From an uncultured Thiotrichaceae bacterium (GTDB lineage: Bacteria > Pseudomonadota > Gammaproteobacteria > Thiotrichales > Thiotrichaceae): a stretch of 64,000 nt of DNA. The translations under genes and the position numbers were made by a program. Positions 1 to 1,405 of this stretch are shown here, in pieces. Below the pieces are notes generated by a model. It saw nothing but the letters and a program-made list of their open reading frames with translations. It searched no databases and had not been told where the DNA came from. The first letter of the stretch is position 1. Every line of letters begins with the position of its first letter. Where the stretch lies: the NCBI GenBank assembly GCA_937925855.1, contig CALAMO010000030.1:1-64000 (forward strand), written 5' to 3'.

Positions 1-248
1 CTGCTGAGAATGCGATTCGCCCCTTTGTGATTGGGCGCAAGAACTGGTTGTTTAACAATACCGTTGCTGGGGCAGAAGCCAGCGCTAACTTATACAGCTT
101 AATGGAAACCGCGAAAGCGAACGGACTGGAACCCTACCACTTCCTTAAACGGGTGCTGACTGAACTACCGGCGGCTAATACGGTTGAGCAAATCGAAGCG
201 TTGCTGCCCTGGCAAGTCAAAATGCGGCTACCTGTGGGGATAAATTGA
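1..248 (+). CDS. IS66 family transposase (TnpC), C-terminal part
   Basis: The frame is open from base 3 and reads AENAIRPFVIGRKNWLF, then SANLYSLMETAKANGLEP and EALLPW, which is the conserved C-terminal end of IS66 transposases (DDE core tail plus the IS66 C-terminal domain). About 82 residues of an expected roughly 500 are visible; the rest is upstream of the window, so whether the copy is intact cannot be judged. The GTG at 27 picked by the ORF track is an internal valine, not a start. The stop lies inside the terminal inverted repeat, as is usual for compact insertion sequences. Confidence 0.88.
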   Translation, partial: AENAIRPFVIGRKNWLFNNTVAGAEASANLYSLMETAKANGLEPYHFLKRVLTELPAANTVEQIEALLPWQVKMRLPVGIN

Positions 249-255
249 CGCTTAC
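1..255 (+). mobile_element. right end of an IS66-family insertion sequence
   Basis: The left edge of the window lies inside the transposase gene of an IS66-like element. The element appears to end at the C of TTGACGCTTAC, seven bases past the transposase stop; the reverse complement GTAAGCGTCAA resembles the GTAA-starting terminal inverted repeats of IS66 elements (from memory, not compared with a database). The next bases are the ATG of a toxin-like frame, so the insertion lies inside or at the edge of that gene. The left inverted repeat, tnpA/tnpB and the 8-bp target duplication expected for this family are outside the window. Confidence 0.7.
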
Positions 256-1092
256 ATGACGGGAATTATAGCGGGTGCTTTGAAGGGTGCATTCTTTGGT
301 GGACGCTCCGTCGGGTTAGCTTACGGTATTGGTCATGTTTTGAGTATCCCCGAAGGGTCTGTTGGTAAAATGATTGCACACGGTGCTGCTCAGGGTGGTG
401 TATCACGTTTGCAGGGTGGAAAGTTTTCCTCTGGTTTTGTGGGTGGGTTTTTTGGGCATATGACGGGTGGTTTTGTTAAAGGCATTGGGAAACACCTGGG
501 GTCTGTTGGCGTTGCGATGCGGACGACTGCGGCGGCGGTTGTTGGTGGGACGATTTCTAAGTTGACGGGGGGGAAGTTTGCAAATGGGGCTAGAACTGCG
601 GCGTTTGTGCATTTGTTTAATGCGGAGAGTGGTGGAACTCCCAAGCCAAAAGCAAGAAATGAATTACTATCAGTATTTACCTTTGATGAAGCCTTTGGTG
701 GTCATGCTGCATTTGCCTTCACGCATAACGGTTCATCAGTATTGGTCGATCCTAATGGTTCATTTGTTCCTATTGGAGCCAATGAGCGGGCAGGCTTTAT
801 TTTTGATGTTGATGTAACGGAATATTTAGGACACTGGAATGTTACTGATAATGTTGGTGTTTTCATGCAGTCCATCCCGATATCAAGCAATGAATCTGCA
901 GCACTAAATGCTGCAACAATAAATCCAGAAGCATACTTATTTGGTTCTATATGTTATTGCGCTTCAACTACTGGAAATTTTATTTCTAGTAATATTCCAA
1001 GGTTTGGTTCTCTTAGGCAACCTACGTTACCAACGACCATCAGGGATTATTTCTCCTCACAAGGCTATAGGGCTGTTCGCTATGCTGATTAG
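256..1092 (+). CDS. C-terminal fragment of an Rhs-type polymorphic toxin (pre-toxin region plus candidate papain-like toxin tip)
   Basis: The ORF begins immediately after the IS66 end, so its first ATG is probably not the native start and the YD-repeat body is missing. Residues 1-123 are Gly-rich with two copies of a GGKF-(S/A)-x-G motif (GGKFSSG about 54, GGKFANG about 106) and end in ARTAAFVHLFNAE, the boundary seen just before variable tips of Rhs proteins. Residues 125-278 are the variable tip. It has FGGHAAFAF (His150), a VDPNGSF strand, and later SICYCASTTGNFIS (Cys233, Cys235). A His-before-Cys order is what circularly permuted NlpC/P60-like (papain fold) domains have, so peptidoglycan or peptide hydrolysis is a possible but unproven activity. 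The next gene overlaps its 3' end and may encode immunity. Without its 5' part it is likely an orphan cassette. Confidence 0.68.
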   Translation: MTGIIAGALKGAFFGGRSVGLAYGIGHVLSIPEGSVGKMIAHGAAQGGVSRLQGGKFSSGFVGGFFGHMTGGFVKGIGKHLGSVGVAMRTTAAAVVGGTISKLTGGKFANGARTAAFVHLFNAESGGTPKPKARNELLSVFTFDEAFGGHAAFAFTHNGSSVLVDPNGSFVPIGANERAGFIFDVDVTEYLGHWNVTDNVGVFMQSIPISSNESAALNAATINPEAYLFGSICYCASTTGNFISSNIPRFGSLRQPTLPTTIRDYFSSQGYRAVRYAD

Positions 1093-1405
1093 TCTTGCAA
1101 AGAAAGTAATTGTTTTTTGTTGTCTTATTATTGTTGCTATGTTGATTTGCAAAGGCTTTCTTTTTTCAAAAAAGATTGTTGAACTAAATGACATGCCACC
1201 GATGACCTCCAATGATATTTGTGAAGATGAGGAAAACCTGGGAGAGATCGTTGCTGTAAATCTTGCAATCGTAATGAAACCAAATTCTCCAGGGAGAGAT
1301 CCGGTATACAGTCTCTATGCAAGGTTATATGTGTTGCTGCTATCACCGGAAAATAAATGCGCTCTTAGGCATAGGTTAGCTTACTATCGAGATAAGTTTT
1401 TGTAA
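1082..1405 (+). CDS. candidate immunity protein, membrane-anchored, unknown family
   Basis: A 107-residue ORF starting at ATG 1082, 11 bases inside the end of the toxin-like gene, a spacing typical of toxin-immunity pairs. Residues 5-28 (AKKVIVFCCLIIVAMLICKG) form one hydrophobic helix preceded by lysines, so it is either a signal anchor or an uncleaved signal with the remainder in the periplasm. The remaining roughly 80 residues (LNDMPPMTSNDICEDEEN onward) are acidic and then basic, with no motif I recognise. The ORF track starts this frame at 941, which would lie deep inside the upstream gene. Assignment as immunity rests on position and topology only: a periplasmic-facing protein would suit a periplasm-acting toxin. 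Confidence 0.5.
   Translation: MLISLAKKVIVFCCLIIVAMLICKGFLFSKKIVELNDMPPMTSNDICEDEENLGEIVAVNLAIVMKPNSPGRDPVYSLYARLYVLLLSPENKCALRHRLAYYRDKFL

Follow-up and report, generated by a model that had tools for sequence, protein, structure and literature searches.

At the start of a contig from an uncultured Thiotrichaceae bacterium we identify what we read, with a probability of roughly 0.6, as an Rhs toxin-immunity cassette orphaned by IS66: it would combine a permuted papain-like tip that attacks lipid or lipoprotein acyl groups with a membrane partner that protects against it. Computation directly establishes the membership of the tip in a family, the conservation of its motifs, its predicted fold class, the modular exchange of tips and the IS66 break.

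A tip severed from its Rhs shell

The window (the whole stretch of 64,000 nucleotides that was analyzed) is the start of contig C30 in a genome of 3.57 Mb and 64 contigs, and the contig start falls within an IS66 transposase. Behind the end of this element lies an ORF of 278 aa (256-1092, +), with the first 124 residues constituting a linker and residues 125-278 the tip, and this is overlapped in turn by a partner gene. The features of the locus are as follows, with C51 denoting a contig of the same genome that carries a second copy of the linker:

3..255 (+): C-terminal end of the IS66 transposase (ORF 3-248; PF13817 E 5e-17, PF03050, NF033517), followed by the right IS terminus, GACGCTTAC (247-255)
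256..621 (+): Gly-rich post-core linker, 5'-truncated and with no RHS core attached (homology to the C51 copy and to Rhs proteins of the bacterial family)
628..1092 (+): toxin tip of 154 aa, predicted to be a cysteine enzyme with a permuted papain-like fold (family profile, AF2, PDB structure match)
703..705 (+): predicted catalytic His26 (tip numbering; H150 in the ORF), unchanged throughout alignments A2, A3, A5 and A6
748..750 (+): Asp41 (tip numbering) in the DPxG motif, predicted as the third residue of the active site; always D in A3 and A5, and either D or N in A6
958..960 (+): predicted nucleophile Cys111 (tip numbering), the second Cys in CYCAST; unchanged throughout A2, A3, A5 and A6
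1069..1072 (+): AGGG, possible ribosome-binding site for the partner gene, read from the sequence
1082..1405 (+): partner gene of 107 aa, proposed immunity protein (11-nt overlap with the tip, hydropathy)

The ORF at 256-1092 is a 5'-truncated Rhs gene cut at 255/256 by IS66, a break that was missed in the initial annotation: homology to the C51 copy sets in exactly at 256, the base after the IS66 end. As a consequence of this cut the ORF lacks an Rhs shell, with neither RHS repeats nor a core found within it, and for the same reason we file it as a severed tip rather than as an Rhs protein. Candidate shells for the tip were considered and set aside, namely a piece with RHS repeats that ends contig C56, and cores on contigs C61 and C12, none of which is attached to it; RHS-core or RHS-repeat pieces elsewhere in the genome stand separately. 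Since IS66 parts the cassette from any Rhs shell, it is probably not delivered, and in its orphaned state here it may be only a reserve tip or a source of immunity.

An alternative to which we would give somewhat less than even odds is that the locus is a remnant, i.e. a copy that has been decaying since the IS66 insertion and is without present function, a reading compatible with the fold and family assignments made below. It would account for the missing RHS core and for the want of any obvious ribosome-binding site in the sequence upstream of the ATG at 256, and it is in keeping with the linker copy on C51, which is also coreless, and with the separate RHS pieces; against it, the frames of both tip and partner are intact and all the predicted active-site residues have been kept.

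Downstream of the partner gene, on the opposite strand (1434-1700, -), the window contains an intact BrnA/CopG-like antitoxin ORF (1434-1640, PF12441 E 0.003). Beside it VRVISARPATEHEQRQYEAE presumably represents the last residues alone of a BrnT-like toxin and, as seemingly nothing more of the toxin adjoins the antitoxin ORF, this segment looks like a toxin-antitoxin remnant.

Linker conservation and exchange of tips

The tip had been described from the outset as that of an Rhs protein, and the linker bears this out, being common to full-length Rhs proteins of related genera, where it comes after the RHS core (DPSGYFF). Ten of the 63 genomes searched in this bacterial family, that of the window included, gave protein matches to the linker. 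One of the parent Rhs proteins, of 2330 aa (L024:2435-9427, -), has an N-terminus that resembles a signal sequence and contains SpvB, FG-GAP repeats and RHS repeats, with a C-terminus that is variable, in addition to the linker match; no PAAR or type VI part was seen in such proteins.

Within its own genome, the linker at 256-621 is 95% identical at the DNA level to G000:C51:38042-38407, which bears another tip. The identity stops exactly at TTTAAT (616-621, encoding LFN), and behind this point the C51 copy continues into a DUF4329 tip and a lipoprotein-like partner. Hence, the conserved Rhs region upstream of the tip is also found with other tips. The GC content is 0.516 for the linker but drops to 0.40 over the tip and to 0.364 over the partner gene. 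The sharp end of the linker identity, the different tip behind the C51 copy and the drop in GC are signs that the linker-tip-partner arrangement is a swappable cassette. The C51 locus (L002:1417-2331 and 2336-2998) thus gives this genome a second orphan tip, and contig C61 encodes a further Rhs C-terminus, the tip of which is HNH-like and the neighbor of which has 152 residues (L156:1030-1767, 556-1014).

An unnamed family shared with a Rhodobacteraceae lipoprotein

The motifs GGHAAFAF, VDPNGSF and CYCASTTGNFIS, which had been singled out initially, are all present within residues 125-278 (window 628-1092). The initial annotation assigned neither tip nor partner to a named family, and our searches agree: the tip has no significant match in Pfam, NCBIfam, PADLOC, PHROGs or the PDB sequences, and the partner has none in Pfam, NCBIfam, PADLOC or PHROGs and no plasmid match. 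Searches with the tip alone of viral contigs, phages, plasmids, GTDB contigs and the organism's own family also returned no match. Several candidate relatives were rejected: the first weak class-level matches turned out to be frames that lie within aroC and other genes or run antisense to them; a transporter substrate-binding protein (L041) was a chance pick-up; and a match to Lactamase_B_3 was weak (E 0.04-0.12) and spanned about 24 residues only.

Among 399 sampled genomes of the phylum there were two weak full-length matches to the tip, both of them lipoproteins with the same motifs. The related lipoprotein is encoded in 102 of the 121 sampled genera of one family, the bearers of which are named Rhodobacteraceae in GTDB records; it is homologous across nearly the whole tip, shares the GHxA, DPxGS and C motifs with it, and in all the sequences extracted has a motif resembling a lipobox. 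Against a profile of the family from which the tip was left out, the latter scores 22.7 bits, versus 7.2 bits for the best of 5000 shuffles, and H26, D41 and C111 fall in conserved columns; the relationship thus goes beyond chance. In profile comparisons of the family using hhalign the tip attains an E of 2e-5 and the other toxin forms (see below) range from 7e-13 to 1e-6. By its significant profile match and its conserved H, DPxG and C, the tip is therefore a member of the same unnamed family as the Rhodobacteraceae lipoprotein. The lipoprotein differs from the tip in being chromosomal or plasmid-borne and without a visible toxin partner. Neither Pfam nor NCBIfam offers a model for this lipoprotein (L076-L155), in which a Cys-His-Asp active site is predicted, and its flanking and conserved neighbor genes provide no clear functional hint.

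Predicted active site and fold

Across all forms, comprising four kinds of member, the tip residues H26, P42, G44, C111, F126 and P135 are invariant, while D41 shows a single change, to N. With a family alignment of the tip and 43 homologs, which are only 16-27% identical to it, AF2 returned a model with a pLDDT of 78.2 and a pTM of 0.76, as against a pLDDT of 34 for the tip as a single sequence. In this model H26 opens the strand 26-33, D41 comes after the strand 36-40 and C111 opens the helix 111-122; thus, it presents a His on a strand that precedes a Cys at the N-terminus of a helix, along with a polar third residue, which is the arrangement that marks the permuted papain-like or NlpC/P60 domains. 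The best match of the model in a Foldseek search of the PDB was TseH of Vibrio cholerae (6v98), a permuted NlpC/P60 effector, at weak values (E 0.06, probability 0.75, TM 0.44), and the second was AvrPphB; both are papain-like and neither is significant alone. TseH and its family were not matched in Pfam and PDB sequence searches with the tip, and a viral structure search yielded nothing significant.

The invariant H and C, the secondary structure and motif order in the AF2 model, and TseH as the best PDB match argue for a permuted papain-like layout, and the predicted structure supports a circularly permuted papain-like core for the tip. The His-first, Cys-later order proposed initially is thereby upheld, and the comparison of a structural model with papain-like folds, which had been put forward as its check, ranked papain-like structures first, with weak Foldseek matches.

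Further toxin forms of the family

The family profile also uncovered a second Rhs tip (L074:1489-2151), to which an RHS core (TIGR03696 E 5e-11) is joined immediately upstream. Its neighbor (L074:878-1471, -) is a protein of 198 residues with one membrane helix, behind which lies the C-terminal part of a GT51 domain (profile positions 78-175, PF00912 E 2e-10), the N-terminal part being missing; a cell-wall enzyme may have given rise to this protein as an immunity protein. With the L074 tip as a query, we recovered an effector encoded behind an Hcp gene in Proteus mirabilis (Hcp: PF05638 E 1e-16), and relatives of this effector occur on another 32 records, most of them conjugative plasmids, from Proteus, Providencia, Escherichia and Moellerella. 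These Hcp-adjacent effectors (WP_048822182 and relatives) share with the tip of the window its domain, its motifs and an overlapping membrane partner; unlike it, they are separate genes behind Hcp and their partners have several membrane helices. Two such partner ORFs, each overlapping its Hcp-linked effector (L160:4521-4997, +; L158:6347-6850, +), are 32% identical to each other (E 3e-22). The plasmid-borne one carries no annotation in its feature table.

The 107-residue partner

The partner ORF begins with an ATG, overlaps the stop codon of the tip by 11 nt and has the AGGG 9 nt upstream of its start; by rough arithmetic, a 107-codon open frame would arise by chance at the local GC of 0.364 with a probability of ~5e-4. 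The protein is membrane-anchored, as had been claimed, with one strong predicted helix at residues 9-27 (Kyte-Doolittle 2.87). The initial annotation also had it facing the periplasm: although the helix itself is clear, lysines flank it at both ends, making the topology less certain than had been stated, and a periplasmic location of the C-terminal part is plausible from the sequence.

Its own genome holds no second copy of the partner gene, and a comparison of the 107-residue protein with the partners of the other toxins detected no similarity. The expectation that this frame would recur beside homologous tips gave a mixed outcome: the frame is absent beside the one further Rhs tip recovered and the Hcp-linked forms, which have other membrane partners. 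Different partners are usual for swapped tips. The toxin partners examined in the family have membrane helices and are of unrelated kinds, and we propose that the 107-residue protein is the immunity protein of the cassette.

Predicted target and mode of action

The catalysis, compartment, lipid substrate and immunity role of the tip-partner pair may be predicted as follows. The tip would be an NlpC/P60-type cysteine enzyme with a predicted Cys111-His26-Asp41 active site that acts in the periplasm of a rival cell or on the outer side of its inner membrane; there it would most likely attack acyl groups of phospholipids or lipoproteins, while the membrane-anchored partner would shield the membrane of the producer. 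The toxin probably acts at the envelope, since the conserved form of the family is a lipoprotein, and hence bound to the envelope, and since membrane proteins make up the toxin partners examined.

The initial annotation had pointed to peptidoglycan as the target. Since the permuted NlpC/P60 enzymes characterized to date, including LRAT, YiiX, Lnb and Tox-Act1, mostly act on lipid acyl groups (PMC12994826), we favor the acyl groups of lipids or lipoproteins and, by this analogy, regard membrane lipids or lipoproteins as likelier targets than peptidoglycan. A precedent is presented by Tox-Act1, a type VI effector of the Salmonella SPI-6, which is a permuted NlpC/P60 antibacterial toxin with a catalytic His followed by a Cys and an adjoining membrane-helix immunity gene: it is toxic in the periplasm only, where a membrane immunity protein counters it, and its substrates are phosphatidylglycerol and phosphatidylethanolamine, which it cleaves (PMC12994826). 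We liken it to the tip by its published description, and it differs in its type VI delivery, as opposed to that of an Rhs tip, and in the two helices of its immunity protein (PMC12994826).

That a tip with the same fold and compartment is instead a peptidase or amidase of peptidoglycan appears unlikely to us. Enzymes of the canonical NlpC/P60 order do cut peptidoglycan (PMC12994826), and the GT51 C-terminal half in the partner of the L074 tip hints at a cell-wall connection; but the order in the tip is permuted, with H before C, as in the members characterized mostly as lipid enzymes, and TseH itself, first proposed as an endopeptidase, was later found to have phospholipase activity on liposomes (PMC12994826).

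Equally improbable is a protein-targeting envelope enzyme, i.e. a protease or a lipoprotein-modifying enzyme, with the toxin being a twist on the ordinary role of the Rhodobacteraceae lipoprotein: the near-universal presence of the latter across the genera of that family indeed indicates an ordinary envelope function for the domain, and one lipoprotein homolog weakly matches (E 0.022) Lnb_N (PF13387, DUF4105), the domain of the Bacteroides lipoprotein N-acyltransferase and a member of the permuted NlpC/P60 group (PMC12994826), but the tip itself has no Lnb_N match, the hhalign profile comparison with 30 Lnb_N domains reached a non-significant probability of 0.4%, and the genes flanking the lipoprotein give no clear hint as to its function.

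Implications for the family

Beyond the reading of the locus as an orphaned cassette directed at lipid or lipoprotein acyl groups, we put forward, as a tentative proposal that we hold with less assurance than either that reading or the remnant alternative, that the family is a new clade of enzymes that carry out acyl transfer or phospholipase reactions in the envelope. Its ordinary form would be the near-universal, uncharacterized lipoprotein of Rhodobacteraceae, and the domain would have been recruited at least twice as a toxin, in Rhs tips and in the Hcp-linked effectors that conjugative plasmids carry, each time with membrane immunity proteins that are unrelated. The analysis ties an unannotated Rhs tip to this lipoprotein and to previously unrecognized Hcp-linked effector genes on conjugative plasmids through one predicted active site, and all three are therefore directly testable.
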